Shown: positions 3,579-41,780 of the stretch, piece by piece | How the letters are laid out: every line of letters begins with the position of its first letter | How positions within the stretch are numbered: the first letter of the stretch is position 1 | NCBI GenBank assembly: GCA_020628895.1 | Contig: JAHDEM010000020.1 | Span: 1-43,494, forward strand | DNA length: 43,494 bases | Direction: 5' to 3' | From: Candidatus Endobugula sp. | Lineage (GTDB): Bacteria > Pseudomonadota > Gammaproteobacteria > Pseudomonadales > Cellvibrionaceae | Translations under genes and position numbers: made by a program | Notes under the pieces: generated by a model | Seen by the model: only the letters and a program-made list of their open reading frames with translations | Databases searched by the model: none | What the model was told of the DNA's origin: nothing

Positions 3579-3599
3579 TCTATAATAATAATTTATAGA
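3579..3599. promoter_or_regulatory. AT-rich dyad upstream of the 5-oxoproline operon
   Basis: TCTATAA and TTATAGA form perfect 7-base arms around 7 bases. It lies about 50 bases upstream of a second dyad, a spacing typical of the recognition and activation sites of LysR regulators. Confidence 0.35.
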
Positions 3600-3648
3600 A
3601 TTATAAAAAATCTATTAATTAGACTTTTTATTGCTTTGGTAACATGAT

Positions 3649-3661
3649 TGACACATTGTCA
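3649..3661. promoter_or_regulatory. Candidate LysR operator (T-N11-A) overlapping a -35 element
   Basis: TGACA-CAT-TGTCA is a perfect dyad with the T-N11-A form of LysR-type sites. It overlaps a perfect TTGACA hexamer (3648-3653) located 31 bases before the first gene of the operon. No good -10 box sits at the right spacing, so the transcription start is uncertain. The neighbouring LysR protein is the natural candidate ligand. Confidence 0.45.
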
Positions 3662-3684
3662 GTTAGCTAAAAGATAACGAGTCC

Positions 3685-4500: not shown

Positions 4501-4512
4501 AAGAGGGTGATC

Positions 4513-5478: not shown

Positions 5479-5512
5479 ATATAGCGTGTAGACATTAAGA
5501 AGCGGTTTTATT

Positions 5513-6028: not shown

Positions 6029-6030
6029 TC

Positions 6031-8743: not shown

Positions 8744-9669
8744 TGTCTCTACGGGTGATTAAATCGAGTTTTTTGACGTTGTTACAAGATTATGGCCGCT
8801 ATGGTTATCAGCATGTTGGCTTAACCCATAGTGGTCCACTGGATGAACATGCTTACCTTTGGGCGAATCGTTTATTAGACAATCATTATAATGCGGCGCA
8901 GTTAGAAATTAGCTACGGCGTTTTTGCTGCTGAATTTCTTGAGGATTCTGTTATTGCATTATGCGGTGCTGATTTACGTGCTACTCTTGGTGGCAAGTCG
9001 ATTACACCTTGGCAAACTTATAATATTAAGCGAGGCGATATTATCGAATTTGCCAGCCCTAAACATGGCCTACGTGCTTATCTTGCGATAAAAGGTGGCT
9101 TTAAGGTTACTGAAACCTTGTCGAGCGTAGCGGCTGTTGTGCGAGAAAATCTTGGTGGTCTTAATGGTGATGGTAGTAAGGTGTCGCCGGGCGATCAAAT
9201 TGTCTACGAAAAAAAAGCGCATCAAATGACGAGCCGTGTACCTGAAAAATTTATTCCTGCTTATTCATCGTCCATCACTTTACGTTTTGTACCGAATATT
9301 TCTGTGAGTTCTGCTGGTCTCGATGCACAGGCGGTTTTTCAAAATACACCTTATGAAGTGACACAAAATATCGACCGTATGGGCTATCGCTTATCGGGTG
9401 AACCTATCCAAGTTCCTTTGGAGGGAATCGTATCTCAAGGGATTTCAGTGGGTAGTATTCAACTGCCAAAAGATGGGCAACCTATTGTCTTAATGAAGGA
9501 TAGGCAAACCATGGGAGGCTATCCTTTATTAGGTTGTGTTACTGCTATCGATTTGCCTCTACTCGCTCAAAGCAGTCCAGGGACCAAAGTAAAATTTAGG
9601 GCAGTGGATATAGATGATGTTGAATCTGAATTGGTTATATATAAAAAGTTTTTTAATGTTGCGGCTTAA
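8743..9669 (+). CDS. pxpC: 5-oxoprolinase subunit C (KipA/PxpC family)
   Basis: A 308-aa last subunit of 5-oxoprolinase (biotin-dependent carboxyltransferase-like or KipA family). The N-terminal signature LLQDYGRYGYQHVGLTHSGP is followed by LDEHAYLWANRLL. Later come ALCGADLRATLGGK, the AYLAIKGGF segment near residue 118 and the C-terminal MKDRQTMGGYPLLG. Length is normal. Translation is coupled to pxpB through a one-base overlap. It is the last gene of the operon: a hairpin follows about 120 bases downstream and the next gene (leuA) is on the other strand. Confidence 0.92.
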   Translation: MSLRVIKSSFLTLLQDYGRYGYQHVGLTHSGPLDEHAYLWANRLLDNHYNAAQLEISYGVFAAEFLEDSVIALCGADLRATLGGKSITPWQTYNIKRGDIIEFASPKHGLRAYLAIKGGFKVTETLSSVAAVVRENLGGLNGDGSKVSPGDQIVYEKKAHQMTSRVPEKFIPAYSSSITLRFVPNISVSSAGLDAQAVFQNTPYEVTQNIDRMGYRLSGEPIQVPLEGIVSQGISVGSIQLPKDGQPIVLMKDRQTMGGYPLLGCVTAIDLPLLAQSSPGTKVKFRAVDIDDVESELVIYKKFFNVAA

Positions 9670-14498: not shown

Positions 14499-16679
14499 TT
14501 ACATCTTTCCTACCGGGAAGAAAAAGGTTTCCCCTGAACTGTCATCAACACCATCGTTATCTGTAACCGCGTAACCTTGTCCATTAACATCGATGGCAAA
14601 GCCTTCGATTTTATCGGTGACATAGCCATTAAGCGCTTTAAGGTCAGGGATAAAGTCACGTACTAATTCTTTGTTGACCAATGGTAGATCACCACCCAAC
14701 TTAGCTGCTTTTAGTTCACTTTGTGCAACGCGATATAAACGCTTAATTTTTGCATTGTCACCAATTTGATTATCACGCTCGATGATATAAACATAATCAC
14801 CATAAGCGGTAATTTCTGATAAGCCAACCCAGCCTTTAGTTGCAGGTTCTGTTGGGTAACGAACAGCGCCCCATTCTTTTGACTTAGTATTGTAAGATAC
14901 TAGCTTAACGGTATTTTTAGGGTCATCTTTCCATTGACGTTGAATGGCAATCCATAATGTATCGCCAATACGTGTAATGCCTTCAGAGCCAAATCGTTTT
15001 TCAACCGCCAGTAATTCTGCTGGGAAAGCAAACTCACTTTTCTTTGCGCCAATTTTTCCTTTAGCATTTACATGATAAATGGCATGTGGTGTTAAGCGAT
15101 CAGTACGTCCTTCAGAGGCTATCCAGAATCCGCCTTTACCATCGGTAGTGATACCTTCCATATCTAATTTTTGAGCAGGTGAACCATCACGAGTAATAGG
15201 TGTTGCTTTAATAATTTTCGCGGGTGTTTGGTTAGCATCGATAGTGAAAATAGTGGGTTGGCTGCGATAAAAGCTATCGTTAACGGCGTAAAAAATGCCG
15301 GCTTTTTCTTCATCAGCTACCAGGCCAGATAGTGCTCCCCAACCAATCGGACGATCACCATCCATTACTGATTCAAGCTGAGGATAAACGGGTGCTTTAT
15401 CCGTGAGTTCATAAATCATAATGTGTGAACGAGGGCCTTTATCTTCGATTAGATCCTTTTCGTTAGCAGTGATAAATAGGTTGCGCTCAGGGATAGCAAC
15501 AGCGCCTTCTGGGGCAATACCTGAAGGAAGTAATTGTACAAACTCTGGTTCTGCATCAGTGTCTTTATAAACACCCACAAGACCTGCACGCTCAGTTAAC
15601 ACAAAAATATAGGTGTCTTTGCCAAAGCGAGCCACTTCAAGTCCTTCCGGCTCAGCACCTTTATTTCCAGAACGTTTCTCTGGATAGTGCCCAGCCATAG
15701 CCACACGATATTCTAAGTCTAAACCTGACTCATAAACCACATCGCCTTTTTTGTTGAAAATAGTAAAGCCACGAGAACCACCTTCGTAGTCGCCTTCATT
15801 GGCCGTCACAAAACGGTTATTACCAATCCATTTAACCGCATCAGGTTCGCGTTTACGGAAAGATTGTTTACCATCAAACGTGAGTGCTCGTTCTTCATCA
15901 AGGTCAACGTTATTAAGGTTTACTGCACCAGCAGAGAAATGGTTAATAACTTTGCCTTTTTTTGCATCAATCACCGCAATGTGATTGTTTTCTTGCAAAG
16001 TGACAACAATTTCATTGAGGTTGTTAAAGTCGATAAACTCTGGTTCTGGGTCTGTTTCGGCAATATAGGCAAGACCTGTCAGGTCGACGGCCTTCATTTT
16101 TTCACAACGAGGTAATCCTTTTTTAAGTGGGATGATAAGCACATTGCCCGCTGGTAGCTGAGGAATCACGCCATCATTTAAATCTTCATCGCGCTCGTTT
16201 TCGATAGCAATAGCCACATACTTACCATTTTTAGCAACAGCAATAGAATCTGGCTGACCACCTAAGTCACACTGAGCGACTAATTTTTGATTGTTGATAC
16301 TCACTGCGGCCAGAAAGCCACTGGGCTGTGTATAGCTTTTGGAGGTATTTACACCGGCTAATACGTAATCGGTAGCGACTGATACAGAGGTAGGTTCACC
16401 ATCTAATGATAAGAAACCCGCAGCCGTTGGTTTTGATGGGTTTGTGATATCAACAAAGCCGATACCCCCTAATGGACTATCAGAATAAATCAATGTGTTT
16501 CCATCTTTACTCGCGGTGATTATTTCAGCCGATGTTTCGGTCTTATTATCTTTGCCCGCTGCAGCTAGATTATTCGCCGTTGTCCACGATGCAATACGGT
16601 GAAATGAATCAGCGCTTGTAACCGATGCAGCCATCATTGCTGCTAGTGGTATCAAGCCTTTGAACAGTGTAGTCTTCAT
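14499..16679 (-). CDS. Secreted beta-propeller protein with phytase-like esterase domain
   Basis: A 726-aa exported protein. An N-terminal Sec signal (MKTTLFKGLIPLAAMMAASV, cleavage after about TSA) leads into a propeller-type region up to about residue 430, with repeated blade motifs such as GKYVAIAIENERDED and NRFVTANEGDYEGG. A C-terminal domain of the esterase-like activity of phytase family follows, from about residue 445 (GWGALSGLVAD, LDMEGITTDGKGGFWIASEG, FGSEGITRIGD). Such proteins are taken to act on phosphate esters outside the cytoplasm, but few are characterised. A set of 11-bp-spaced repeats resembling a Pho box lies upstream, which would fit phosphate scavenging. It is monocistronic with its own terminator and divergent from nudC. 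Confidence 0.8.
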   Translation of the reverse strand: MKTTLFKGLIPLAAMMAASVTSADSFHRIASWTTANNLAAAGKDNKTETSAEIITASKDGNTLIYSDSPLGGIGFVDITNPSKPTAAGFLSLDGEPTSVSVATDYVLAGVNTSKSYTQPSGFLAAVSINNQKLVAQCDLGGQPDSIAVAKNGKYVAIAIENERDEDLNDGVIPQLPAGNVLIIPLKKGLPRCEKMKAVDLTGLAYIAETDPEPEFIDFNNLNEIVVTLQENNHIAVIDAKKGKVINHFSAGAVNLNNVDLDEERALTFDGKQSFRKREPDAVKWIGNNRFVTANEGDYEGGSRGFTIFNKKGDVVYESGLDLEYRVAMAGHYPEKRSGNKGAEPEGLEVARFGKDTYIFVLTERAGLVGVYKDTDAEPEFVQLLPSGIAPEGAVAIPERNLFITANEKDLIEDKGPRSHIMIYELTDKAPVYPQLESVMDGDRPIGWGALSGLVADEEKAGIFYAVNDSFYRSQPTIFTIDANQTPAKIIKATPITRDGSPAQKLDMEGITTDGKGGFWIASEGRTDRLTPHAIYHVNAKGKIGAKKSEFAFPAELLAVEKRFGSEGITRIGDTLWIAIQRQWKDDPKNTVKLVSYNTKSKEWGAVRYPTEPATKGWVGLSEITAYGDYVYIIERDNQIGDNAKIKRLYRVAQSELKAAKLGGDLPLVNKELVRDFIPDLKALNGYVTDKIEGFAIDVNGQGYAVTDNDGVDDSSGETFFFPVGKM

Positions 16680-16735
16680 ACTAAGCCCCTATAGAGAATA
16701 TACGTGTTATAAACCGTAGATAATGGCGCCTTAAT

Positions 16736-16775
16736 ATGACGTTTCTATGTTATTTATATGTCAGTTATATTTCAT
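16736..16775 (-). promoter_or_regulatory. Candidate Pho box (four 11-bp-spaced repeats)
   Basis: On the plus strand the heptamers ATGACGT, ATGTTAT, ATGTCAG and ATTTCAT start at 16736, 16747, 16758 and 16769, each separated by four AT-rich bases. In the minus direction these read like the CTGTCAT-N4 repeats bound by PhoB. They lie 57 to 96 bases upstream of the phytase-like gene. Individual repeats match 4 to 6 of 7 consensus bases, so the periodicity carries most of the weight. Confidence 0.45.
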
Positions 16776-16852
16776 CGATATGGCTGTTTAATGCAAAGTA
16801 TAAAAATTGAACAAAATACATTTATTGAGATAGAGAAGTAGGTAATAGCTTC

Positions 16853-17677
16853 ATGGCAAAATTTACGCAGTTACAAGAAACGGATTATTTGTTAGTCATG
16901 CACAAGCAGCAGTTACTAAGCCATGCATCGATTGAGATACCTATTATTCAAATTCCGCATGTAGAAAAGCTTCTTGTTAAGGTATTGGGTAACGCTAATA
17001 TTCTTAATGAAGCAGAATTAATCCAAGTTGGCCCTTATGCAGATGGGCAATGTTATGTGTTTGATGTTTTTCACTCCACAGATGATAGTTACTTGGTGAG
17101 TTTTCGCTCGTTGATGCAAGCAATGGCTAACGAGGAAAAACAGTTAATTAATCGTGCAATGCAATTAATTACTTGGCGAAAACAGCATCAATACTGTGGA
17201 CAGTGTGGCCAGAAAACGCGTTTACACGATGAAGAACAAGCTTTTCATTGTAAACCCTGTGAGCTTTTTTATTATCCGCGAATATCGCCATGTATGATGT
17301 GCTTGGTAACCAAAGGTGATTATTGTTTACTCGCTCAACATCAAAAACATCGCAATGGATTTTATTCCACACTAGCAGGCTTTGTTGAGGCTGGTGAAGA
17401 AGTGGAGGCAACCGTTCATCGTGAAGTGATGGAAGAAGTGAGCTTAACGGTTAGTAATTTATCCTATTATACTTCTCAGGCTTGGCCATTCCCTCATCAG
17501 TTAATGATTGGATATTTTGCAGAATATGCGTCCGGTGATATTGTCGTTCAAGACAAAGAAATTGTTGATGCTCAATGGTTTCATTATTCTGATTTACCAG
17601 ATATTCCTCCACCGGAAACTTTATCGGGCATGATGATAGGGGAGTTTGTTAAACAACGAACAAAGAATGTTAAATAA
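16853..17677 (+). CDS. nudC: NAD(+) diphosphatase / NADH pyrophosphatase
   Basis: A 274-aa Nudix hydrolase that splits NAD(H) to NMN(H) and AMP and removes NAD caps from RNA in E. coli. The zinc ribbon is intact (CGQCGQ near residue 115 and CKPC about 18 residues later). The Nudix box G-x5-E-x7-REVxEE is present as GFVEAGEEVEATVHREVMEE (about 176-195). After it comes SQAWPFPHQLM, the NADH-family signature usually written SQPWPFPxS, here with Ala for Pro and His-Gln at the end. Length is close to E. coli NudC (257 aa). It is divergent from the phytase-like gene and convergent with fadJ, 19 bases apart. Confidence 0.92.
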   Translation: MAKFTQLQETDYLLVMHKQQLLSHASIEIPIIQIPHVEKLLVKVLGNANILNEAELIQVGPYADGQCYVFDVFHSTDDSYLVSFRSLMQAMANEEKQLINRAMQLITWRKQHQYCGQCGQKTRLHDEEQAFHCKPCELFYYPRISPCMMCLVTKGDYCLLAQHQKHRNGFYSTLAGFVEAGEEVEATVHREVMEEVSLTVSNLSYYTSQAWPFPHQLMIGYFAEYASGDIVVQDKEIVDAQWFHYSDLPDIPPPETLSGMMIGEFVKQRTKNVK

Positions 17678-17696
17678 TTTGTTAATGATTTGTTTT

Positions 17697-19727
17697 TTAA
17701 CGATGATTTTTTACTGTTTCTTTTATGCCCAAGTTTCCCATATACTCAAAAGGTCCACCTAAAAAAGGTGGGAAGCCGATGCCAAAGATAGCGCCAATAT
17801 TGCCGTCTCGTTCGCTACTAATAATGCCATCTTCCAAACATAAAAGGGCTTCTTTAAGCATTGGGTAGAGGCAGTATTGAATGATGGCTTCCTGATCCAT
17901 ATGTTTACTTTGTGTAATGCCGAGGTCGCTGTAAATACTCTCATCAATCCCTTTATTCTTGCCAGTGTAATTATAAAAACCTTTTTTCACTTTTTTACCT
18001 AAACGGCCCTTATCCAGTAAGGTTTGCTGCATGCCGCAACTTTTCATTCTGTCGCCAAATGCGGCTTCAAGGACCGGAAGAATTTTACTGCCAATATCGA
18101 TGCCGACTTCGTCGAGCAATTTAATGGGGCCTACAGGAAAACCAAATTGAGTGAGTGCGTTATCAATTTTATCGAATGGTACACCATCGGCACCTAATTG
18201 AAGGGCTGCATTCATATAAGGAGTTAAAATACGGTTAACATAAAACCCCGCTCCATCATTAACAACAATCACTGTCTTGCCTTGTTTTCTGCCAAAGTCT
18301 ACCGCGGTAGCAATAGTTTGGTCGGACGTTCCCTCGTGTTTGATGATTTCTAGAAGGGGCATTTTCTCAACAGGTGAAAAATAATGCATGCCAATCACAT
18401 TTTCGGGATGCTTGGCTTTAGCAGCAATATCGCTAATAGGAATGGAGGATGTGTTGCTAGCAAAAATAATATGATCGTTACCTAAAGCTTCGATATCTTT
18501 GAGCATTTGGTGTTTTACATTAATATCTTCAAATACGGCCTCAATAATGAGCTCGGCAGATTCAAAACCGGAATAGTCGAGAGTGCCAGAGAATTGATTT
18601 ATTTTTTTCTTAGCTTGTTCTGCGCAGAGAATACGGCGCTTAATACGTGTTTTATAAAATTGATTCAGGTATTGATAGGCTCCTAAAATCCCTGCATCTT
18701 GAATATCCTTCATGCGTACACTGACATTGGCTTTATCTACCGATACGGTGGCAATACCAGAACCCATCAAACCACCGCCTAAAATACCGATCTTAGATAT
18801 GGTACTTGGTTTAATATCGTCGGCAACAAACGATGCTTTTTTTAACTCTGTTGTCACAAAGTAAAGTTGCATTAATTGCTTGGCCTCTGGGGTCACGGCA
18901 AGCTTACCAAATTGCTCTGCTTCGTAACGTAAAGCATTATTGAGTGATTGATGTAGCCCTTTGTTGATTACGTCAAGAATCGCTAATGGGGCAGGGTAGA
19001 GCCCTTTTGTTTTTTTAATGACTTGCTGTTTAGCTTTATGAATAATTAAGTGGCTGATAACTGGCCACGCAAGCACTTTTTGCAAAAATGCCTTTTTCTT
19101 TCTAAGTGGCTGTTGTTGTATTAATTTTTTTGCGCAGGAGATTGCTGCATCAGTTATGATTGCTTGTGGCACTACACTATCAATCATCCCTATGCGTAAG
19201 GCACGTTTAGCATTGAGTTGTTTACCTGTGAGGATGATATCTAGCGCCGATGGTAAGGCAATTAAGCGTGATAATTTAGTGGTTCCTGTGGCGCCGGGTA
19301 ATAAGCCTAGCATGACTTCAGGTAGTCCTATTTTAGTCGCTGTATTGTCGCTAGCGATGCGGTAGTCACAAGCTAGAGACAATTCATATCCTGCGCCTAA
19401 ACACACACCATCAATAGCAGCAATAAATGGTGTTTCATGATTTTCTATACGCTGTAATAACACATGCGCTTGGCTGACAATATTGGATGCTTCGGCGGCA
19501 GTTTGTGTGTCTCGTAACATTTTGATATCTGCGCCAGCAATAAAACAATCTGTTTTTCCACTGGTAATTATCACCGCTTTAATACCGTCGTCGTTGTCAA
19601 TATGGTCAAGCACCTCAGTGAATTCGTTCACGACCTCTTGATTAAGAACATTCATCGACTCATGTTTGATATTAATGGTAAGTATTAATATTCCACTAGC
19701 ATCTAACTCATAGGACAGTGCTTTCAT
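17697..19727 (-). CDS. fadJ: FadJ/FadB-type fatty-acid oxidation multifunctional enzyme, C-terminally short
   Basis: Fused enoyl-CoA hydratase and 3-hydroxyacyl-CoA dehydrogenase, 676 aa from ATG 19727 (an in-frame GTG at 19736 lacks a ribosome binding site). The hydratase half has GADIKML, then GVCLGAGYELSLACDYRIAS and GLPEVMLGLLPGATG carrying the two catalytic Glu. The dehydrogenase half has the NAD loop GILGGGLMGSGIA (near 315), GMHYFSPVEKMPLLEII and NDGAGFYVNRIL. The end is unusual: the protein stops soon after GIGFPPFLGGPFEYMGNLGI, where homologues run about 40 residues further to a YGxRFxP region. The following DNA has stops in frame and no sign of the missing part. It forms an operon with fadI, 92 bases upstream. 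Confidence 0.88.
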   Translation of the reverse strand: MKALSYELDASGILILTINIKHESMNVLNQEVVNEFTEVLDHIDNDDGIKAVIITSGKTDCFIAGADIKMLRDTQTAAEASNIVSQAHVLLQRIENHETPFIAAIDGVCLGAGYELSLACDYRIASDNTATKIGLPEVMLGLLPGATGTTKLSRLIALPSALDIILTGKQLNAKRALRIGMIDSVVPQAIITDAAISCAKKLIQQQPLRKKKAFLQKVLAWPVISHLIIHKAKQQVIKKTKGLYPAPLAILDVINKGLHQSLNNALRYEAEQFGKLAVTPEAKQLMQLYFVTTELKKASFVADDIKPSTISKIGILGGGLMGSGIATVSVDKANVSVRMKDIQDAGILGAYQYLNQFYKTRIKRRILCAEQAKKKINQFSGTLDYSGFESAELIIEAVFEDINVKHQMLKDIEALGNDHIIFASNTSSIPISDIAAKAKHPENVIGMHYFSPVEKMPLLEIIKHEGTSDQTIATAVDFGRKQGKTVIVVNDGAGFYVNRILTPYMNAALQLGADGVPFDKIDNALTQFGFPVGPIKLLDEVGIDIGSKILPVLEAAFGDRMKSCGMQQTLLDKGRLGKKVKKGFYNYTGKNKGIDESIYSDLGITQSKHMDQEAIIQYCLYPMLKEALLCLEDGIISSERDGNIGAIFGIGFPPFLGGPFEYMGNLGIKETVKNHR

Positions 19728-19819
19728 CAGTATCACTCTTTATCATTATCTATATTGAGTTGTTATAAGTTAATAGCTTAAATACTTGCTGGTGGTAGCT
19801 ATAAGCTTGTCGCTTTGTA

Positions 19820-21100
19820 TTATTCTGCCTCGATTATCATAGCAGCACCAATACCCCCAGCCGCACAAGCTGTGGTAAGAGCTACACCTCCGCCACGGCG
19901 CTTAAGCTCGTGTAAGGTTTGTGTGATAATTCTTCCACCTGTCGCAGCAAAAGGATGACCATAAGCTAGGGAACCGCCTAAGACATTAAATTTGGACATA
20001 TCAATCTCACCTAATGCTTGTCTGCGATTAAGGAATTTTTTTGCATACTCTTTTGAAGCAAACGCTTTTACATTCGCCAGTGTTTGCGCGGCAAAAGCTT
20101 CATGCATATCAATAAGTGTGAGATCTGACAAATTCATACGCGCTTTTTTAAGGACTTTTGACGAGGCTTGAGTGGGTCCCATTAGCAAGTCACACTCAAC
20201 TGTATTAGCCGTAAAGGCATAATGTTTGATGTACCCGAGTGGCTCATATCCTAGTGCTTTAGCCATCGACTCTTTCATTAGTAATAATGCACAGGCACCA
20301 TCGGTAAGAGGTGTACTATTTGCTGCAGTGACGCTGCCATGTTTTCTATCAAAAGCAGGTTTTAGGGACGCTAATTTTTCTATTGTGGAATCGCTACGAA
20401 TATTTTCATCCTTAATAAATGTATTTTTATAAGGCTCCGTATAAGTATGAATTACCTCACTATTAAGCTTACCTTCTGCCCAAGCTTGCTCTGCTAGTTG
20501 ATGTGATCGTAGAGTCAATTCATCTTGCGCCGCTCGCGTAATACCAAAATCTTTTGCCATTTGTTCAGCACTATCTCCCATGCGCAAATTGGTTGTATAT
20601 TCGGCTATGGCTGGTGGTATAGGTAAGAGATCCTTTAAGCGGGTACCTTTAAAGGCTTTGAGTTTTTGAGTAATAGAGCGAGCCTTATTGGCTTGAATTA
20701 ATTTTTTTGCAAAATTATCGCTAAAACAAATAGGAATAACACTGGATGAGTCTGCACCGCCTGCAATACCAATTTTAATATCATTGGTTTTAATGCTATC
20801 CATAATAGAAGCAACAGATTGAAAACTAGTCGCACACGCACGAGATACGCTATAAGCGTCGCAGGTCACAGGTAAATCTGTGCCTAGCACAATTTCCCGT
20901 GCAATATTCGGTGCCTTAGGAAGTGCAACCACTTGGCCGTAAATTAAACGGTCGACAGAATGTAAATCAATATTGGTTTGTGCCAGCAGCTCTTTAACCA
21001 CCATTCGGCCGAGGTCTATGGAATTGACATGTTTGAAAAACGTACCTTGGCGTGCAAAAGGTGTACGTAAACCAGAAACAACGGCTATACGATCAGGCAT
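19820..21100 (-). CDS. fadI: Acetyl-CoA C-acyltransferase (3-ketoacyl-CoA thiolase)
   Basis: A 426-aa thiolase of the FadI type, carrying out the last step of beta-oxidation. The nucleophile is C89 in [16 protein letters not shown]. The active-site histidines lie in MHEAFAAQ and in [11 protein letters not shown], and the second cysteine in [14 protein letters not shown] at the C-terminus. Length fits FadI (about 436 aa) better than FadA (about 390). It is followed by fadJ on the same strand, the fadIJ order of E. coli. A 23-bp palindrome 48 bases before the start codon is a candidate operator for a fatty-acid-responsive repressor. Confidence 0.93.
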
Positions 21101-34163: not shown

Positions 34164-34829
34164 TTAGGCTTTTTGTGAATCGGTGGCGATAGACCAATAG
34201 GAGCCTTCTTTGCGGTCAATATGACTACGAAGAATGTCTAATGCACGTTCCTCATCTTTATTCTTAACCGCTTCGACAATCGCTAAATGTTCTTGATAAC
34301 TCTTAGACATATGATCTGGGTGTCGGCCGAGTCGGTTGCGTATTGCCGACATTTTTTGTGCAATCGTTTGGTAAGCGTCATTTAAAAATCGGTTATCAGA
34401 ATAATCAAACATTAATTGATGAAATTGAGAGTCTAATTGCAAGTAGTTCATATCATCATCGCGTGCTCTTGCTTTGGTCATAGCTGTAGTACATTTACGT
34501 AGCGCCCGTTCAAAGGCAGTGGCATTATGACGAATAGCCGCAGAGAGGGCAGCTGTTTCTAGGCAGGTTCTAGCATCGCATAATTTTGCCAATTCTTCCG
34601 GGGCTAAATGAAAAACAAATGTTCCTCTTTGCGGTTCAACGGTCAATAAGCCTTCCATTTCTAACCGGTTAATAGCTTCTCGTACGGGTGTTCGGCTCAC
34701 TTCAAATTCTTTTGCTATTTTGGCTTCCGAAATTTGCCCCCCTAACTCTAAATCTCCGTTAATAATCAGGCCTGCTAGTTTGCTTGTAACCAGCTCCGTT
34801 AGTGACTTTGGCCGTTCAATGGTATTCAT
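34164..34829 (-). CDS. GntR-family regulator, FadR/FCD subfamily
   Basis: A 221-aa dimeric repressor or activator. The N-terminal winged helix (about 8-75) contains ISEAKIAKEFEVSRTPVREA and RLEMEGLLTVEPQRG, typical of GntR. The C-terminal FCD all-helical domain (about 85-210) shows the metal/ligand residues in order: Asp in LDSQFHQLMF (with a nearby His), a His in YQEHLAIVEAV and the last His in LRSHID. FCD regulators respond to small carboxylates and sugar acids. The gene is divergent from the TRAP-catabolic operon with a large palindrome between them, so it almost certainly controls that operon and itself. Confidence 0.9.
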   Translation of the reverse strand: MNTIERPKSLTELVTSKLAGLIINGDLELGGQISEAKIAKEFEVSRTPVREAINRLEMEGLLTVEPQRGTFVFHLAPEELAKLCDARTCLETAALSAAIRHNATAFERALRKCTTAMTKARARDDDMNYLQLDSQFHQLMFDYSDNRFLNDAYQTIAQKMSAIRNRLGRHPDHMSKSYQEHLAIVEAVKNKDEERALDILRSHIDRKEGSYWSIATDSQKA

Positions 34830-34900
34830 TTACTCCCCTCTTTTAATACTCATTTCTTGTTATAGATATCGTCTATTCTGAAAAGAAGTATATCACGTTT

Positions 34901-34952
34901 AGCATACCGTGCTTGACATACTGGCATACCGTATGCCAGTATGTCGTATGCT
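34901..34952. promoter_or_regulatory. GntR operator cluster with 31-bp palindrome and embedded -35 box
   Basis: Arms of 15 bases (GACATACTGGCATAC at 34915-34929 and its exact complement at 34931-34945) surround one central C. The core GGCATAC-C-GTATGCC is the strongest site. Extra half-sites AGCATAC (34901-34907) and GTATGCT (34946-34952) flank it, and GCATACCGT occurs twice. A perfect TTGACA (34913-34918) overlaps the left arm, so a bound regulator would cover the promoter. The -10 box is unclear (CAGTAT at 18 bases). It lies 36 bases before dctQ and 72 from gntR. Confidence 0.75.
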
Positions 34953-34987
34953 AATAATAAACACGCGGATTTTTTTAGAGGTAAACC

Positions 34988-35512
34988 GTGAAAAAAGTAG
35001 AAATTTGGATGGTAGCCGCCAATCGAGCATTGGTAGCGTTACTGTTGGCTGTTGTTTTTGTCATTGTTTTTATCAATGTTGTTGGGCGCTATGGGTTTGG
35101 AGTGTCTATTTCTTGGATAGAAGAAGCGGCGCGTCATTTAATGGTGCTTTGCGCATTTTCTGCATCAGGCTTGGCGTTAAGAGAAGGGCGGTTGGTCGCT
35201 ATCACTACTATTTTGACCGTCTTGCCTATTCATCTTCAACGATATTTACGTTGGATGATTGTCTTTATTATGTTTGCCTTCATGGCCCTGCTTTGTTGGT
35301 TAGGCATTGAGTTTGTGCAATTTGCTTGGAATAAAGAAACCATGGCCACGGGCATCTCACGTGGTATTCCTTATATGGCCATTCCTATCGGTTGTTTATT
35401 ATTTTTAGTACATCTGTGTTTTTTTGCTAAACGATTTACTCGAGAAGAATTTGAATCGGGCTATGAACCTGAATCTCATCTATCTGAAACTGATCAGGTT
35501 AAAGGGAATTAA
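34988..35512 (+). CDS. dctQ: TRAP transporter small membrane subunit, DctQ family (second system)
   Basis: A 174-aa inner-membrane protein beginning with GTG behind a clear AGAGGT ribosome binding site. It has four hydrophobic segments. The DctQ landmark ISWIEEAARHLMVLCAFSAS follows helix 1 and LREGRLVAI follows helix 2. It is the first gene of the operon opposite gntR. The order here is dctQ-dctM-dctP, different from the dctP-dctQ-dctM order of the first TRAP system in this window, and the two systems differ clearly in sequence, so this is not a local duplication. Confidence 0.87.
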   Translation: MKKVEIWMVAANRALVALLLAVVFVIVFINVVGRYGFGVSISWIEEAARHLMVLCAFSASGLALREGRLVAITTILTVLPIHLQRYLRWMIVFIMFAFMALLCWLGIEFVQFAWNKETMATGISRGIPYMAIPIGCLLFLVHLCFFAKRFTREEFESGYEPESHLSETDQVKGN

Positions 35513-35515
35513 GTC

Positions 35516-36802
35516 ATGGCTAAAACACTCATTATTTTATTCTTTGCGACGCTATTTTTAAGTGTTCCTGTTGCTTTTACGATGGGTATTGCTGGCTTAA
35601 CGTCGATATTAGTTTATGACATTGTCAGCCCGCTAGTTGCAATACAGCGGTTGTTTAATGGTATTGATAGCTTTCCACTCATGGCCGTGCCATTTTTTAT
35701 TCTTGCATCTGAGTTAATGACTGCCTGCGGTCTAACTAACACACTTTTGCGATTTGCCAATACCTTAGTGGGACATCTTCGTGGAGGACTTGGTCACGTT
35801 AACGTACTGGTATCTATGCTTTTTGCCGGAATATCTGGATCCGCCTTGGCCGATGCGGCTGGCCCATCTGCCATTGTTATGCGCATGATGAGAAATGCAG
35901 GCTACGGTAAATATTATGCAGGTGCACTTTCTGCAGCCACGGCGACGATTGGACCGATTATTCCCCCTTCAATTCTTGCTGTGATTTTTGCGATTTCAAC
36001 CACAGGCGTAACGGTTGCTGGATTATTTCTTGCGGGAGTCATTCCGGGTTTGCTATTAGGCCTATCGCTGGCGATTGCTAACCATATCGTATCCACTCGC
36101 CATGGTTATAAAGGGCGTGACAATAGAGCAACACGACAAGAGTTGTTTCAATCAGCCGTATATGCCATCCCAGCGCTAATGATGCCGTTAATTATTTTGG
36201 GTGGAATTATTTTTGGTGTGTTTACACCGACAGAGGCGGGAGCAGTGGCTTCGGCTTACGCACTATTTCTTGGTATTGTTAAAAAATCGTTGAGTTGGCA
36301 ATCAGTTTATCAAGCGTTTTCTCGTGCCGCCATTATTACCTCTTCAGTATTTTTGATTATTGCCATGGCATCTATTTTTGCTTGGTTACTAACTTATTTA
36401 CAAATTCCTCAGGATTTAGCGGCGGCCATTAATGGCCTAACAGATAACACCATTGTTGTGCTCATTATTTTAGCGTCCTTCGCTTTAGTGTGTGGATTTT
36501 TTATCGATACGCTGCCGGCATTAATTATTTTGACACCCATACTTGGGCCCATCGCTTATAGCGCAGGTATCGATCCTCTTCATTTTGGAATGATGTTAAT
36601 TCTCAATCTGACTATTGGCATGATTACACCTCCAGTCGGTCCTGTCTTATTTGTGATTGCAACGGTTGGACAGTTAAAACTAGAGGGTCTTTTTAAAGCA
36701 GTTCTGCCTTTACTAATGGCAGAGTTCGTCGTTCTTTTGCTGGTTATTTTTGTTCCTGAAATCAGCACCTTCATCCCCAAATCCTTGGGTTATAACAATT
36801 GA
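35516..36802 (+). CDS. dctM: TRAP transporter large permease, DctM family (second system)
   Basis: A 428-aa polytopic permease. DctM signatures are FPLMAVPFFILASELM near 52, FAGISGSALADAAGPSAIVM near 103, then TIGPIIPPSILAVIFAI, a central FTPTEAGAVASAYA and a C-terminal GMITPPVGPVLFVI. It uses the sodium gradient to move a ligand delivered by DctP. It starts 3 bases after dctQ. Sequence features place it with the C4-dicarboxylate/sugar-acid branch (SiaM and YiaN-like), consistent with a sugar-acid substrate. Confidence 0.9.
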   Translation: MAKTLIILFFATLFLSVPVAFTMGIAGLTSILVYDIVSPLVAIQRLFNGIDSFPLMAVPFFILASELMTACGLTNTLLRFANTLVGHLRGGLGHVNVLVSMLFAGISGSALADAAGPSAIVMRMMRNAGYGKYYAGALSAATATIGPIIPPSILAVIFAISTTGVTVAGLFLAGVIPGLLLGLSLAIANHIVSTRHGYKGRDNRATRQELFQSAVYAIPALMMPLIILGGIIFGVFTPTEAGAVASAYALFLGIVKKSLSWQSVYQAFSRAAIITSSVFLIIAMASIFAWLLTYLQIPQDLAAAINGLTDNTIVVLIILASFALVCGFFIDTLPALIILTPILGPIAYSAGIDPLHFGMMLILNLTIGMITPPVGPVLFVIATVGQLKLEGLFKAVLPLLMAEFVVLLLVIFVPEISTFIPKSLGYNN

Positions 36803-36823
36803 CATGACTACGGAGAATAACTA

Positions 36824-37843
36824 ATGAAAACCATGTCCAAAATAATAAATACAACCTTTACGTTAACCCTTATTGCAGCGGCTACCTCGGCCAATGCAAA
36901 AACACTGAGATACGCACATTTCCAAGCGGCTGATCTTAGTTCACCTAAACATGCTGCAGCATTGGCATTTGAAAGTTGTGTGGAAGGTAAAACGAGTAAC
37001 TCGATTGATGTGCAAGTGTACCCTGCGTCGCAATTAGGTGGCGGTACAGAAATTATGGAAGGTTTAGAGATTGGTACTGTGCAAATGGCTGCCATCCATG
37101 ATGGTCCTATTTCTGCCACTTATAAGCCCTTTTCTGTGTTAGCGATGCCTTATTTATTTGATGATCAAGCCATGGCATGGTCGGTGATGGATGGAAAGTT
37201 CGGGCAAGATTTAGCTAGCGACATGCTAAAGAAAACAGGAATCAGAATGTTTGGCGTGGCTGATAATGGTGTTCGCAACTTCACAAATAATGTGCGTCCT
37301 GTTTCTTCTCCAGAAGATATGAAAGGTCTGAAAATGCGAGTGATGACTGCTCCAGTATGGGTGAAACTAGTCGAAAGCTTAAATGCGTCTGCCACTCCGG
37401 TTGCTTGGCCTGAATTACCCGGTGCTTTACAGCAAGGTATTGTTGATGGTCAAGAAAATGGTGTGACTAATATCGTCAATGCTTCTTTGTATCAACATCA
37501 AAAATATGTCTCGCTCGATGGTCATGTTTTTAGTTGGCACGCTTACCTTATGAATGACAAATTCTACAAAGGCTTGTCAAGCACAGAAAAAACAGCAGTC
37601 GATCAATGTGTCGAAATTTCTAAAGTTATTCACCGTGGTATTACATCAGCACAAGATGCTAATGCGACAGCGATCTTATCTGAAAAGGGAATGGAAGTTG
37701 TTCCTGTAAGCCCAGAACAAAAAGCAAAATTCAGAGCCGCTGCACAACCTGCCGTTAGAGAGTTTATTGTGAGTGAAATTGGTGAAGATTGGCCAAACCG
37801 TTTAGATGCTGCGGTTGAAGAATACAGAGCGAAGTTTAAGTAA
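36824..37843 (+). CDS. dctP: TRAP transporter solute-binding protein, DctP family (second system)
   Basis: A 339-aa periplasmic binding protein. The signal peptide ends near residue 25 (AAATSANA, then KTLRYAHF). DctP landmarks are QVYPASQLGGGTEIMEGLEI, then SPEDMKGLKMRVMTAPVWVK with the carboxylate-binding Arg, and WPELPGALQQGIVDGQENGV. These features are shared with DctP proteins that bind uronates, aldonates and related acids. It is the third gene of the operon, 21 bases after dctM and 6 bases before the dehydrogenase gene. The precise ligand cannot be read from sequence. Confidence 0.9.
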   Translation: MKTMSKIINTTFTLTLIAAATSANAKTLRYAHFQAADLSSPKHAAALAFESCVEGKTSNSIDVQVYPASQLGGGTEIMEGLEIGTVQMAAIHDGPISATYKPFSVLAMPYLFDDQAMAWSVMDGKFGQDLASDMLKKTGIRMFGVADNGVRNFTNNVRPVSSPEDMKGLKMRVMTAPVWVKLVESLNASATPVAWPELPGALQQGIVDGQENGVTNIVNASLYQHQKYVSLDGHVFSWHAYLMNDKFYKGLSSTEKTAVDQCVEISKVIHRGITSAQDANATAILSEKGMEVVPVSPEQKAKFRAAAQPAVREFIVSEIGEDWPNRLDAAVEEYRAKFK

Positions 37844-37849
37844 TTAATT

Positions 37850-38821
37850 ATGGAAGATTTAAAAGTAGTAGTCCTTGAACCGGGATATGCCTCTTATGGC
37901 ACAGAACGGTCAGTATTGTCTCGGCTCAATGCCGAGATAATCCCCATACGGGAAAATGTTGATGTTGCCAATGCATTGAAAGACATCAATCCCAAAGTGG
38001 TTTTATTAAGAGAAAGTGAGTTTAGAAAAGAAGAAATCGACCTTTGTCCAAACTTGCAAGGTGTTATTCGCTACGGTGTTGGTGTTGATAACATTGATTG
38101 CGACTATGCAAAAGAAAAATTGATTTATGTGGCCAATGTTCCTGACTACGGTGCAGAAATAGAAGTTAGCGAGCATGCGGTCGCATTGTATTTAGCAATA
38201 CAACGTCGGTTGTTATCCCGCGATCGTGAAGTAAGAGCGGGCGCATGGGGGAATAGTCAACATTCACCTATCCCTTCGCGAGAAAATGCCATTCTAGGTC
38301 TTGTCGGTTGCGGAAGAATTGGTTTGGAAGCGGCAAAAAAATTTCGTGTATTGGGATTTAAAAAAGTGATTGTTTTTGATCCTTATTTATCTGATGAGAT
38401 GGCGAGTAGACATCAGTTAGAAAAGGTAGAACTGGCAGACCTGTGTGCTCAAGCCGATGTTGTTAGTCTGCACGCACCCTTAACTTCAGAAACCTATCAC
38501 TTATTAGATAAAAAGATGATTGCTTTAATGAAGAAAACCAGCGTTTTTATCAACGTCTCTCGCGGTGGTTTAGTGGATGAAGATGCATTAGCACAAGCAC
38601 TTCATCGTGGTGAAATTCTTGGTGCAGGTATTGATGTTTTTGAATGCGAGCCTGCGCCATTGGATACCCCTCTGTTTGCATCTCCGAATACGATCGTTTC
38701 CGATCATATGGCGTGGTATTCAGAGCGGTCTGTTGAAATGTTACAACGCAAAGCAGCGGAGTCTGCCTATCAAATATTAACGGGGAAACAACCCTCAAGT
38801 TGGGTGAACAGGTGGAAGTAA
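37850..38821 (+). CDS. D-2-hydroxyacid dehydrogenase, CtBP-like
   Basis: A 323-aa NAD(P)-dependent dehydrogenase of the D-2-hydroxyacid/phosphoglycerate dehydrogenase superfamily. The substrate domain (about 1-105) contains GVIRYGVGVDNIDCDYAKEK. The Rossmann domain has LGLVGCGRIGLEAAKKF (near 145) with a D at the end of beta-2 (FDPY), which favours NAD over NADP. The catalytic triad is complete: Arg in NVSRGGLVDE, Glu in DVFECEPAP and His in VSDHMAWYSERS. The HMAWYS end is typical of C-terminal-binding-protein-like members. Inference: it interconverts a 2-hydroxy acid and 2-keto acid in the operon pathway. Confidence 0.88.
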   Translation: MEDLKVVVLEPGYASYGTERSVLSRLNAEIIPIRENVDVANALKDINPKVVLLRESEFRKEEIDLCPNLQGVIRYGVGVDNIDCDYAKEKLIYVANVPDYGAEIEVSEHAVALYLAIQRRLLSRDREVRAGAWGNSQHSPIPSRENAILGLVGCGRIGLEAAKKFRVLGFKKVIVFDPYLSDEMASRHQLEKVELADLCAQADVVSLHAPLTSETYHLLDKKMIALMKKTSVFINVSRGGLVDEDALAQALHRGEILGAGIDVFECEPAPLDTPLFASPNTIVSDHMAWYSERSVEMLQRKAAESAYQILTGKQPSSWVNRWK

Positions 38822-38851
38822 ATTTCGCCAAGACTATTTTAGGAGATACTA

Positions 38852-39502
38852 ATGAACTTAGATGAATTAATTAGCGGCTTTCGAAAAGTTGCAACAGCTT
38901 CGGTTGCCGATGCTGTTGACCAAGTTTCTGGTCGCACAGGTTTTTTACCGCAAGAATTTAAACCTCGTATCAATGAGAGAAAGATTGTCGGTCCTGCAGT
39001 CACTATTTTGGAAGGGCCTACCAGTGAATTTCTTCCTCCGGAACATGCACTAGATGCGATTGACGAGGCGGATGCAGGTTCGGTGATGGTGATCTCGACA
39101 AACGGCACTGGGGATGTTGCTTTGTGGGGTGGCTTAATGACAGCTGGGGCTGTGGCAAATAATTTAGAAGCAGCCGTATTAGATGGTGCTGTTCGTGATT
39201 TGGTGGAAATTAAAAGGGACTTTGGTTTCCCCGTTTATTCTAAGTCTGTGAGTCCGGGAACAACATTGGGACGGATTAAAACAATGGCCTCTAATGTAGA
39301 AGTTTCTGTTGGTGGGATTATTGTGAATCCTGGAGACATTGTTGTCGGCGATATCGATGGCATTGTTATTGTTCCTAAAGACGATGCTGAAAAAGTACTT
39401 GAGCTTGCCCAAGAGATTGATGAACGTGAAGCCGAACAGGCCAAACTGATTCTTGAAAGCGGATCCTTAAGAGAAGGCCTTGCCAAATACGGTCGTATTT
39501 AA
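38852..39502 (+). CDS. RraA-like protein (HMG/CHA aldolase family)
   Basis: A 216-aa protein of the RraA family, which includes 4-hydroxy-4-methyl-2-oxoglutarate aldolases, oxaloacetate decarboxylases and the RNase E inhibitor RraA. The core is present: GDVALWGGLMTAGAV, then the active-site R115-D116 in VLDGAVRDL, FGFPVYSKSVSP and PGDIVVGDIDGIVIVP with metal-binding acids. The catabolic context and the intact Arg-Asp pair argue for an aldolase or lyase acting on a 2-keto acid rather than an RNase E regulator. It starts 30 bases after the dehydrogenase gene, with the ribosome binding site AGGAG. Confidence 0.85.
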   Translation: MNLDELISGFRKVATASVADAVDQVSGRTGFLPQEFKPRINERKIVGPAVTILEGPTSEFLPPEHALDAIDEADAGSVMVISTNGTGDVALWGGLMTAGAVANNLEAAVLDGAVRDLVEIKRDFGFPVYSKSVSPGTTLGRIKTMASNVEVSVGGIIVNPGDIVVGDIDGIVIVPKDDAEKVLELAQEIDEREAEQAKLILESGSLREGLAKYGRI

Positions 39503-39514
39503 TTAACCCAATCT

Positions 39515-39544
39515 ATCTTCGTCGTATGTCTGTACGGCGAAGAT
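39515..39544 (+). repeat. Intercistronic hairpin
   Basis: ATCTTCGTCGTA and TACGGCGAAGAT pair over 12 bases (one G-U) around TGTCTG, between the RraA-like and the secreted-propeller genes. There is no T-run after it, so it may stabilise or process the transcript rather than end it. Confidence 0.55.
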
Positions 39545-39608
39545 AAAGCAATACATAACTCAAATAATTACATAACTAAAATAACTAGAATAATGTGGAG
39601 TGTATCTC

Positions 39609-40814
39609 ATGAAAAAAAATCAATTAATATCAACACTTGTTTCAGTAGGTGTCGGAGTATTGCTAGCAACCGATGCTATGGCTCAGGTGAAGCCTGAGGT
39701 CCAAGTTCAATGGAATAGCCTTCCCTATAGTGTTAAAGACAGTAAGATTAAATCAACATGGGAAAATAGTGATGCTTACGGTAAGGCGTTGGTTCAAGGT
39801 GTAAAGCTTGATTCAAATGGCAATATGTATGTGTCTACTGCTCGATGGGGGAGTGCGGATATCCCTTCTACCTTGTCGAAGTTAGTCAAAAATAAAAGTG
39901 GTCAATGGGAGTTAGAAGCATTTCCATCTGAGACACTCAATCACATTGGTAATGCACTTGGTTTAAAGGCGGTACTCGGATTTGAAATTGATCGCAATGA
40001 TGTGATGTGGATTCTTGATCAAGGCCATGTGACAGGCAGCATGTCAAAAGGCGATGCAAAACTGATTTTATGGGACATAAAGGCTAATAAAGAAATTCAG
40101 CGTTATGTTTTTCCTCATAGCCAAGCCGATGAAAAATGTTCATTTTTAAATGACCTAGTGGTGGATAATGATACCGGTTTTGCCTACATCGCTGACAGTG
40201 GCATATTTTGTGACCCGTTGATGGGCGGTTTGATTGTTTATGATAGCAATACGAATACTGCGCGCAGAATTTTAAGTGCGAGTAAATATACGAACGACGA
40301 CCCTAATTTCTTTTTTAATATTGATGATCGCACGGTACTTAAAAACGGCGGCATGCGTACAGGTGCTGATGGGATTGCGCTTTCATCAGATAAAGCAACG
40401 GTCTACTGGACAAACTTAACAGGCAATGCCTTGTACAGCCTTCCTACGGAGTTGCTTCGAGACTTTAAATCTAGTGCCACAGCGATTGAAAATGCAGTAG
40501 AGCTAGAAACCATACTTCCATCCAATACCGATGGTATGACCGCGGATAATGCCGGTAATATTTATATGACGGCACTTTCTCTTGATGGAATTATGAAGTA
40601 CGACACATCGACTCGAGAGCTTACTCGATTTGCTCATCACCCAGAAATGAACTGGCCAGATACTCTCGCTTGGGGGCCAGATAATTCTCTTTATGTTATC
40701 TCTAACCACTTACATGTATGGGTAGATGGAGATATGAATTTCGAGAACCCAGACATTCCAAACTTCCGTATTTGGAAAATCAAAGGTGTGGGCAAAAGCT
40801 ACACCACTCAATAA
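39609..40814 (+). CDS. Secreted MRJP/SMP-30-like beta-propeller (putative lactonase)
   Basis: A 401-aa exported protein of the major royal jelly protein/yellow family, a six-bladed propeller related to SMP-30 gluconolactonases. The signal peptide ends near residue 26 (LLATDAMA, then QVKPEV). Family segments are VKLDSNGNMYVSTARWG, VLGFEIDRNDVMWILDQGH, FLNDLVVDNDTGFAYIADSG, GADGIALSSDKATVYWTNLT and NTDGMTADNAGNIYMTAL. ATG 39609 is preferred over an in-frame GTG at 39600, which lies in the GTGGAGTG ribosome binding site. As a periplasmic member of a sugar-acid operon it may open a lactone before TRAP uptake; bacterial MRJP-family proteins are otherwise uncharacterised. Confidence 0.8.
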   Translation: MKKNQLISTLVSVGVGVLLATDAMAQVKPEVQVQWNSLPYSVKDSKIKSTWENSDAYGKALVQGVKLDSNGNMYVSTARWGSADIPSTLSKLVKNKSGQWELEAFPSETLNHIGNALGLKAVLGFEIDRNDVMWILDQGHVTGSMSKGDAKLILWDIKANKEIQRYVFPHSQADEKCSFLNDLVVDNDTGFAYIADSGIFCDPLMGGLIVYDSNTNTARRILSASKYTNDDPNFFFNIDDRTVLKNGGMRTGADGIALSSDKATVYWTNLTGNALYSLPTELLRDFKSSATAIENAVELETILPSNTDGMTADNAGNIYMTALSLDGIMKYDTSTRELTRFAHHPEMNWPDTLAWGPDNSLYVISNHLHVWVDGDMNFENPDIPNFRIWKIKGVGKSYTTQ

Positions 40815-40860
40815 ACGTATTGGGCTGTGTGAGCAGCCCTTAGATTTTTAGGAGAAATCA

Positions 40861-41780
40861 ATGAGTCCGGATATTATCTGTATCGGAGAGCCATTATTAG
40901 AATTTAATCAACAACCTGATGGGCGTTACTTACCTGGCCACGGTGGTGATACCTCTAACTGTGCCATTGCTGCTGCACGGCAAGGTGCTTCTGTAGGGTA
41001 TTTTACGCTTGTAGGTAATGACTCTTTTGGCAGATCATTTACTGAGCTTTGGCAGCAAGAGGGCGTTGACACAGCGTTAATCAAAACATCAGAGCATGCG
41101 CCTACGGGTGTTTATTTTGTTACCCACGGTAAAGATGGCCACGAATTTAGTTATTTCAGAGAAGGATCCGCGGCCAGCACCATGAAACCCGAGGATATTC
41201 CAGTCGCTGCACTAAAAACTGTGAAAGTCTTGCATGTGTCTGGTATTAGCCAGGCTATTTCTCATACCGCTGCAGACGCTATTTTTGCAGCTATTGATGT
41301 TGTTAAGTCTGTGGTGGCCTTGTCTCCTATGATAGTAATTTACGTTTAAAACTATGGCCATTAGACAGGGCTAGAGCGATTACTCATGCAGCAATGACAC
41401 AATGTGATATTGCATTGCCGGGGTTGGATGATGCTCAGTATCTCACAGGTTTGCAAGAGGCGGATGATATTGTGGACTACTATCTCAATTTAGGTGCTAA
41501 AACCGTTGCGCTGACCTTGAGCCACAAAGGAACGCTCGTGGCGACAGAACAAGAGAGAAAATTGATTTCAGGATTGAAAGTCGATGCCGTCGATGCGACT
41601 GCAGCAGGGGATACTTTTGATGGTGCTTTTTTATCTCGTATCGTCGCAGGTGATGACCCGTTTACTGCCGCACAATATGCTAATGGCGCTGCAGCGTTAT
41701 CGACTCTTGGTTATGGTGCAGTTGCCCCTATGCCCCACAAAGAACAAGTGCTCGAATTTTTAAAGCAAAACGGATATTAG
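40861..41780 (+). pseudogene. PfkB-family sugar kinase (KDG kinase-like), frameshifted
   Basis: Two adjacent frames together encode one PfkB kinase of about 306 aa. The first part (to about 41310) has IICIGEPLLEFNQ, then GHGGDTSNCAIAAARQGASV (PfkB signature 1). The second part, in the next frame, continues GGLVSYDSNLRLKLWPLDRA and ends with VDATAAGDTFDGAFLSRI, the KDG-kinase form of PfkB signature 2 with the catalytic Asp. The break is at about 41308-41314 (AAGTCTGTGGTGGC), where one base is missing; the first frame then stops at 41349. Everything else is intact, so it is a very recent mutation, a sequencing error or, less likely, a recoding site. The intact enzyme would phosphorylate a 2-keto-3-deoxy sugar acid or similar. 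Confidence 0.85.

Follow-up and report, generated by a model that had tools for sequence, protein, structure and literature searches.

The Kdu/Kdg route of pectin breakdown employs KduI, KduD, KdgK and Eda. The described system nearest to our locus, as far as we know, is the L-gulonate pathway of Haemophilus influenzae, which is presented as a TRAP transporter (GulPQM) combined with GulD, UxuB, UxuA, KdgK and KdgA (eLife 2018, PMC5788505). Two further proteins are relevant: FlDet, an RraA-family member from Flavobacterium UMI-01 described as converting 2-keto-3-deoxy-glucarate to alpha-ketoglutaric semialdehyde by dehydration and decarboxylation (PMC8563752), and the 4-hydroxy-4-methyl-2-oxoglutarate/4-carboxy-4-hydroxy-2-oxoadipate (HMG/CHA) aldolase, for which roles of Arg-123, Asp-124 and Glu-199 are described (PMC5065237). 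Here we report an operon behind a divergent GntR gene at positions 34164–41780 of the window, by which we mean the whole stretch of DNA analysed (43,494 nucleotides; contig JAHDEM010000020.1 of the gammaproteobacterium Candidatus Endobugula sp.). The operon is real, widespread and conserved, and its gene context supports well the outline of a route from a sugar acid to a 2-keto-3-deoxy-6-phosphogluconate (KDPG)-type compound. Our preferred reading, which we put forward tentatively, is a GntR-controlled operon for one sugar acid or a few related forms of it (the lactone and keto forms); its pathway would join the semi-phosphorylative Entner-Doudoroff route, with the RraA-family enzyme in a dehydratase-like step.

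In such a pathway a secreted propeller of the MRJP family would open a sugar lactone in the periplasm, and a TRAP transporter, to judge by its family, would bring in the acid. The RraA-family enzyme, placed by gene context as a non-canonical dehydratase-like enzyme, would turn the acid into a 2-keto-3-deoxygluconate (KDG)-type 2-keto-3-deoxy acid, and a PfkB kinase, for which the contextual argument is strong, would yield the KDPG-type compound. The CtBP-like dehydrogenase and, in relatives, a KduD/IdnO-like short-chain dehydrogenase/reductase (SDR) with a cupin protein may provide side entries, converting 2-keto, 5-keto or 3-deoxy forms to the main intermediate and back.

Layout and distribution of the operon

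The window operon comprises the following features (scores are Pfam matches where no other model is named).
34164–34829, minus strand: FCD-type GntR transcription factor, divergent (FCD 84 bits, GntR 68 bits)
34915–34945, no strand: likely operator, a perfect 15+1+15 palindrome (inverted repeat, 31 bp), GACATACTGGCATAC-C-GTATGCCAGTATGTC
34988–35512, plus strand: TRAP small permease DctQ (DctQ 96 bits)
35516–36802, plus strand: TRAP large permease DctM (DctM 378 bits; TIGR00786 416 bits, above cut-off)
36824–37843, plus strand: TRAP solute-binding protein DctP (DctP 252 bits; TIGR00787 above cut-off; nearest solved chain 4p47)
37850–38821, plus strand: CtBP-like D-2-hydroxyacid dehydrogenase (2-Hacid_dh_C 177 bits)
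38852–39502, plus strand: RraA-family enzyme (RraA-like 119 bits)
39609–40814, plus strand: secreted MRJP/SMP-30-like propeller, putative lactonase (MRJP 110 bits; SGL 40 bits, cut-off 26)
40822–40839, plus strand: terminator-like hairpin in the gap between the MRJP and kinase genes (pattern scan only)
40861–41349, plus strand: KDG-kinase-like PfkB, N-terminal part, ending in a frameshift (PfkB 87 bits, profile 34–156)
41310–41780, plus strand: KDG-kinase-like PfkB, C-terminal part in another frame (PfkB 74 bits, profile 183–301; listed open reading frame (ORF) from 41394)

The TRAP set is thus complete by Pfam (DctP, DctQ and DctM), and the MRJP gene has a possible alternative GTG start at 39600. 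Neither a canonical sugar-acid dehydratase nor any aromatic-catabolism gene is found among the Pfam matches of the operon. The families, strands and coordinates given by an initial annotation of this DNA agree with the ORF list and Pfam, while its treatment of the kinase as one intact gene does not hold; the kinase frameshift, the operator, and the SDR and cupin genes of relatives had escaped it.

Distribution was surveyed with RraA, by scanning an alignment of nine sequences against named genomes and keeping the best 80 of 190 confirmed relatives; with eight plasmid loci and the window this gives 89 loci, in which genes were counted within 7.5 kb of RraA. As the loci were selected by RraA, its own frequency is uninformative and only the counts of its partners inform; some loci are cut at contig ends, and absences are upper limits. 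The RraA orthologues of the 88 other loci examined are 59–80% identical, and the 80 named-genome loci span Alpha-, Beta-, Gamma- and deltaproteobacteria and the Trueperaceae (Deinococcota). Plasmid records hold nine orthologues (60–80% identity), and all eight inspected adjoin a kinase gene. Over the 89 loci the partners of RraA are the kinase (89), the CtBP-like dehydrogenase (77), DctP (76), GntR (75), DctM (74) and DctQ (68); MRJP is present in 46, the SDR and cupin are both present in 46, and just one of this pair in 4. The same genes lie near each other in 88 other loci, and the sugar-acid catabolic operon suggested by the initial annotation is borne out as a grouping conserved in other genomes. 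Its remark that the combination matches no known pathway also stands, since titles and abstract starts in the literature, with most subscription papers outside the scope, gave no description of a set of RraA, CtBP, KDG kinase, TRAP and MRJP genes. The carriers include many marine roseobacters, rhizobia and Burkholderiales, and a common compound of algae or plants is therefore the probable substrate.

Close to home the picture is different. Across 145 genomes (the source genome and 144 relatives, two of them from the same genus) the sole RraA orthologue is that of the source genome; 16 further RraA matches (E ≤1e-20) in 15 genomes are only 30–39% identical. Since the operon was not found in the nearest relatives, it was probably acquired by this lineage. 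The GC content (about 0.41–0.43 across the operon and 0.38–0.42 elsewhere in the window) shows no sign of recent transfer. A search with the MRJP protein matched 4 of 369 genomes of the class (E ≤1e-30), the source genome among them. One of these (locus L019, MRJP 56% identical) holds RraA (68%), kinase, MRJP, SDR and cupin genes all together, and the short loci of the other two (MRJP 34–36%) contained no further gene of the set.

The kinase and the step proposed for RraA

The solved structures closest to the kinase of the Rhizobium etli relative are those of KDG kinase (1wye) and further PfkB chains, and its top NCBIfam models, for KDG/KDGal kinases, stay under their cut-offs (194 against 400). 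Residues R104, R166 and D255 (numbering of L023) are present in 88 of 88 kinases, with the window kinase left out. Plasmid relatives of the kinase also occur in operons where the absence of RraA was checked by tblastn: with UxuB, UxuA and Eda (Pseudoroseomonas, L124); with IlvD/Edd (Ruegeria pomeroyi L118, together with Eda and methylglyoxal synthase, and Roseivivax L125); with a pyridoxal-phosphate enzyme of the D-threonine-aldolase/D-serine-dehydratase type (Phaeobacter L117, and Cupriavidus L123 with Eda); with GFO/IDH/MocA oxidoreductases and Eda (Hyphomicrobiales, L122); and with CtBP (Escherichia coli L116, and Priestia L119 with Eda). The E. coli cluster, on plasmid pCEC15 (L116, 7312–12046), consists of an IdnO-like SDR, a TabA/YiaL cupin, the KDG-type kinase and the CtBP-like dehydrogenase, and it also has an MFS transporter and lies beside a GntR gene, with no RraA; three other E. 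coli plasmids have kinase and CtBP matches of the same identity as pCEC15. The Priestia megaterium cluster (L119, 1477–11027) carries GntR, an Ldh_2 dehydrogenase, the KDG-type kinase, Eda and the CtBP-like gene; a GntP permease lies at some distance upstream of these.

A tree was made from 58 kinases, namely 50 of the 88 RraA-linked ones, picked for spread, and the eight from alternative contexts. The eight need six label changes, at least five of them forced by well-supported branches, and shuffled labels need 7.6 on average; Priestia, E. coli and R. pomeroyi sit on long branches. By this sequence tree the alternative-context kinases are interleaved with the RraA-linked ones and are not one group. 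A wider search (E ≤1e-60) found kinase relatives in 27 of 385 genomes (class of G510) and 50 of 399 (order of G546), at 78 places, seven of which are RraA operons (six already in the set, and L193). The remaining 71 loci include seven shorter than 10 kb, one that covers the same DNA as L122, and another (L137) with a distant RraA (23% identity) on the opposite strand. Eda lies within −5.5/+4.5 kb of the kinase in 42 of the 71, on the same strand in 36. From Eda near these relatives and from the interleaving in the tree, the kinase product is most likely of the KDPG type, and the enzyme is most likely a KDG-type kinase in RraA operons too. This agrees with the KDG-kinase-type enzyme of the initial annotation, for which PfkB membership and contexts with Eda, UxuA and IlvD now speak.

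For the RraA step, 90 RraA operons (the 89 and L193, without L019) were compared with the 71 other kinase loci by tblastn counts in the same −5.5/+4.5 kb around the kinase. Eda, on the same strand, occurs in 29 of the 90, directly upstream of RraA in 23 and downstream of the kinase in six, and all six of the encoded Eda proteins that were tested score above the TIGR01182 cut-off. Because Eda and RraA share operons, it is unlikely that RraA does no more than the aldolase step; RraA as sole aldolase, argued from gene exclusivity, was rejected as the main reading on this count. Seven of the 12 operons without CtBP hold Eda, and in these seven Eda, RraA and the kinase are the only recognised enzymes on the strand. 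A TRAP permease precedes Eda in five of them, L062 has an ABC-type permease ORF upstream, and in L063 the contig end is too near to tell. Transporter, Eda, RraA and kinase would make a complete route if RraA forms the KDG-type acid; were RraA an aldolase, it would be redundant in Eda operons and the transporter would have to import a 2-keto-3-deoxy acid. The initial annotation had RraA splitting the phosphorylated product, and this claim is weakened both by the 29 operons with Eda and by the seven just described. Its statement that no dehydratase is present is right for canonical ones, while RraA itself may be the dehydratase-like step, as the description of FlDet suggests (PMC8563752).

Reference dehydratases (IlvD, UxuA, UxaA, DgoD, three MR/MLE and two D-serine-dehydratase-like proteins) lie near the kinase in 2 of 90 RraA operons and in 13 of 71 others; on the same strand the counts are 1/90 and 7/71 (p 0.022, ignoring relatedness), a modest exclusivity. 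Eda is found anywhere in 78 of the 80 carrier genomes, a weak figure with no matched background (control genomes 8 of 14), and within the Trueperaceae in 5 of the 6 genomes that carry the cluster and in 21 of the 33 that do not. The predicted RraA structure (predicted local distance difference test, pLDDT, 93.8) matches 5ir2, 3k4i and 3noj in Foldseek. The protein stays below the cut-offs of the LigK models NF006731 (105.6 against 179) and TIGR02798 (100.7 against 304.5), and does not reach that of the RNase E regulator model NF006875 either (48.2 against 136). A methylglyoxal-synthase-like gene was seen near 11 of the 90 RraA operons (e.g., L031, 13015–13509). The Caballeronia plasmid L024 has a second cluster (16307–20648), in which a distant RraA gene (35% identity) lies with genes for a CtBP-like protein, an MR/MLE enzyme and a zinc dehydrogenase; the stretch seen is truncated on one side and shows no annotated kinase.

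Several of these observations weigh against a dehydratase-like RraA. R115, D116 and E193 align with R123, D124 and E199 of HMG/CHA aldolase (3noj) and are invariant in 89 of 89 sequences, and such class II pyruvate-aldolase residues would be no less suited to an aldol reaction of a 2-keto-3-deoxy acid than to the dehydration of an aldonate. The substrate of FlDet is itself a 2-keto acid, which makes the precedent, as described, an inexact one (PMC8563752). Same-strand Eda is scarcer in RraA operons (29/90) than in the other kinase loci (36/71; p 0.023, ignoring relatedness), which is what partial substitution by RraA would give; as the dehydratase and Eda slots are both thinner where RraA is present, only the direct coexistence with Eda separates the readings. 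The distant Caballeronia RraA beside CtBP-like and MR/MLE enzymes would fit better with an aldolase role, and the E. coli (L116) and Priestia (L119) operons combine CtBP and kinase with neither RraA nor an annotated sugar-acid dehydratase. An alternative in which RraA is the aldolase is thus quite possible, if somewhat less probable than our proposal. In it the cell would take up a (2R)-3-deoxy-aldonate (e.g., of the metasaccharinic type, from a lactone), and the CtBP-like enzyme would oxidise this at C2 to give a KDG-type acid. After phosphorylation of that acid, RraA would cleave the product into pyruvate and a triose phosphate, and no dehydratase would be needed because the substrate is already deoxy. 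Besides the conserved aldolase residues and the rarity of reference dehydratases, it draws on the CtBP-like gene, which lies near the kinase in 78 of 90 RraA operons and only 2 of 71 others (neither of the two on the same strand), and whose R238, E267 and H286, which we take to be the Arg/Glu/His catalytic triad of D-2-hydroxyacid dehydrogenases, are intact in 77 of 77 sequences. In Priestia L119 it is as if Eda fills the slot of RraA, and a Caballeronia plasmid operon without the CtBP-like gene has a flavin-dependent D-lactate dehydrogenase (dld) beside its GntR gene. This dld is the sole candidate for a CtBP replacement in the 12 operons that lack the gene; the ten ORFs scanned near nine of the other eleven belong to non-dehydrogenase families (eight) or have no match (two). 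The aldolase role is at odds with the Eda gene in 29 operons, with the seven operons that would be left without a C2-oxidising step, and with the long branches of the Priestia and E. coli kinases; among the literature matches listed, no paper held the term metasaccharinic acid. The dehydratase-like and aldolase placements of RraA remain close. A third possibility, which we find improbable, is that RraA splits a 2-keto-aldonate phosphate into hydroxypyruvate and an aldehyde phosphate, with the CtBP-like enzyme as a hydroxypyruvate/glyoxylate reductase that clears the product. The glyoxylate-reductase model scores 171 bits for the window protein and 219 for that of R. etli, though its cut-off is 455, and glyoxylate/hydroxypyruvate reductases are described as several subfamilies of this dehydrogenase family (PMC6303947), but this would leave unexplained why Eda is repeatedly present and why the same subfamily of kinases is tied to KDG-forming enzymes.

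A different doubt touches the window only and is compatible with every pathway reading. The kinase is encoded by two ORFs in different frames (40861–41349 and 41394–41780), and the tblastn match with an intact relative is interrupted between 41268 and 41310. The source genome is a draft (2.9 Mb in 99 contigs, about 89% complete), so the frameshift could be a base error; the kinase is broken here or misassembled, and the operon is probably impaired in this genome. With the kinase frameshifted, flux would need another KDG kinase. Elsewhere in the genome an Eda lies beside an IlvD/Edd-family ORF. That the operon is here a decaying remnant, horizontally acquired, devoid of SDR and cupin and doing little, seems doubtful to us. 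The frameshift itself favours decay, as do the lack of a significant SDR or cupin match (tblastn) in the 0.6 kb downstream up to prfC and the absence of an RraA orthologue from the two genus-mates and other relatives searched. Yet the remaining genes are open and keep their catalytic residues, the operator palindrome is perfect, a single frameshift in a draft may stem from a sequencing error, 13 of the 89 loci (window included) likewise have MRJP but not the pair of SDR and cupin, and the GC content gives no hint of transfer.

Propeller, side entries and regulator

The initial annotation had also proposed a secreted MRJP propeller with a lactonase-like fold, and both parts find support, in a signal-peptide-like N-terminus (by eye) and in a well-predicted propeller model (pLDDT 90.3). 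Its nearest solved folds are MRJP1, dopachrome conversion enzyme and the putative hydrolase 2qe8, followed by SMP-30-type lactonases and diisopropyl fluorophosphatase (DFPase), with a VIA Z of 42 to MRJP1 and of 25–26 to the SMP-30-type lactonases and DFPase. N184, D257, D311 and E129 (numbered from 39600) are invariant in 46 of 46 sequences and Q66 is kept in 43; these conserved residues may correspond to the metal ligands of DFPase and DrP35. The gene lies near the kinase in 38 of 90 RraA operons and in none of the 71 other kinase loci. The modelled protein would fit a lactonase. The SDR of relatives is nearest to KduD (205 bits, cut-off 339) and is nearly always paired with a Cupin_7 (ChrR-like) protein.

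The palindrome at 34915–34945 sits between the GntR and DctQ genes, and its 27-bp core occurs once in the window, where no occurrence is expected. Sites of the TGGCATACNGTATGCCA type stand at the same place in relatives: among loci whose GntR exceeds about 60% identity, most have TGGCATAC-N-GTATGCCA, or a version of it that is shorter or longer, as the best palindrome in the interval, and four loci (L032, L034, L049 and L052) gave other best palindromes with the interval boundaries used. When whole genomes were scanned with at most one mismatch, the site was found in 25 of 25 (the source genome and those of L030–L053, the four just named included), each time at coordinates within the contig range of the operon, with contig numbers not matched to names; a reversed-pattern control gave 0 matches. 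The genome of L053 has three sites side by side at the operon. A wider GntR regulon was considered and rejected: the sole extra match (one mismatch, genome of L040) falls inside a 426-aa ORF and was taken as chance. As the site is confined to a single operon, GntR looks like a dedicated one-operon regulator; it is probably a dedicated local regulator, and the 31-bp palindrome is likely its dedicated operator. Different palindromes lie upstream with the GntR genes of rhizobial loci (L022, L023, L055, L056 and L104; CTGCYGCCTAAGGTAGCAG type) and of loci from Burkholderia relatives (L024 and L090; GATATCTAAGATATC type).

Elsewhere in the window, positions 2510–9669 hold a second TRAP operon (DctP 4507, DctM 6031), preceded by a LysR gene. 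It also contains a putative hydro-lyase (PRK05463) and 5-oxoprolinase genes of the PxpA, PxpB and PxpC types, and looks like an operon for the uptake and use of a 5-oxoproline- or glutamate-type compound.

Comparison with described pathways

The operon suggests a testable function for proteins that are annotated only as "RraA family protein" or "L-dopachrome tautomerase-related protein" (the MRJP protein), and it may represent a further, non-canonical way into the Entner-Doudoroff route. A more far-reaching and rather unlikely version is that RraA is a metal-dependent sugar-acid dehydratase or an equivalent lyase yielding 2-keto-3-deoxy acids in a single step, a new activity for its family, and that bacterial MRJP proteins are periplasmic aldonolactonases. 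If true, an RraA dehydratase would replace IlvD/Edd, UxuA and the enolase-superfamily dehydratases in a widespread operon.

Compared with the pectin route, relatives of the operon have an SDR nearest KduD beside a cupin and a KDG-type kinase. Their cupin is Cupin_7 and not KduI, and the SDR and cupin were not found in the window operon. With the H. influenzae L-gulonate cluster, as described, our operon shares TRAP import of a sugar acid, a KDG-type kinase and, in the third of RraA operons that hold Eda, a KDPG-type aldolase, whereas RraA and the CtBP-like enzyme stand in place of UxuA and a secreted MRJP protein is added in about half (PMC5788505). Like FlDet, it places an RraA-family member in a 2-keto-3-deoxy sugar-acid pathway; FlDet, which we compared by its description only, differs in being encoded far from the conventional alginolytic cluster and in acting on a C6 diacid (PMC8563752). 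RraA resembles the HMG/CHA aldolase LigK/GalC (3NOJ) in its fold and in the equivalents of R123, D124 and E199 (PMC5065237), and it differs from it in scoring below the LigK cut-offs and in an operon that has no aromatic-catabolism genes in the window. Finally, the MRJP protein shares the propeller fold with SMP-30 gluconolactonases and the xylonolactonase XylC (PMC8529709), and several inner acid/amide residues are invariant among the MRJP sequences, while its nearest folds are MRJP1 and dopachrome conversion enzyme.

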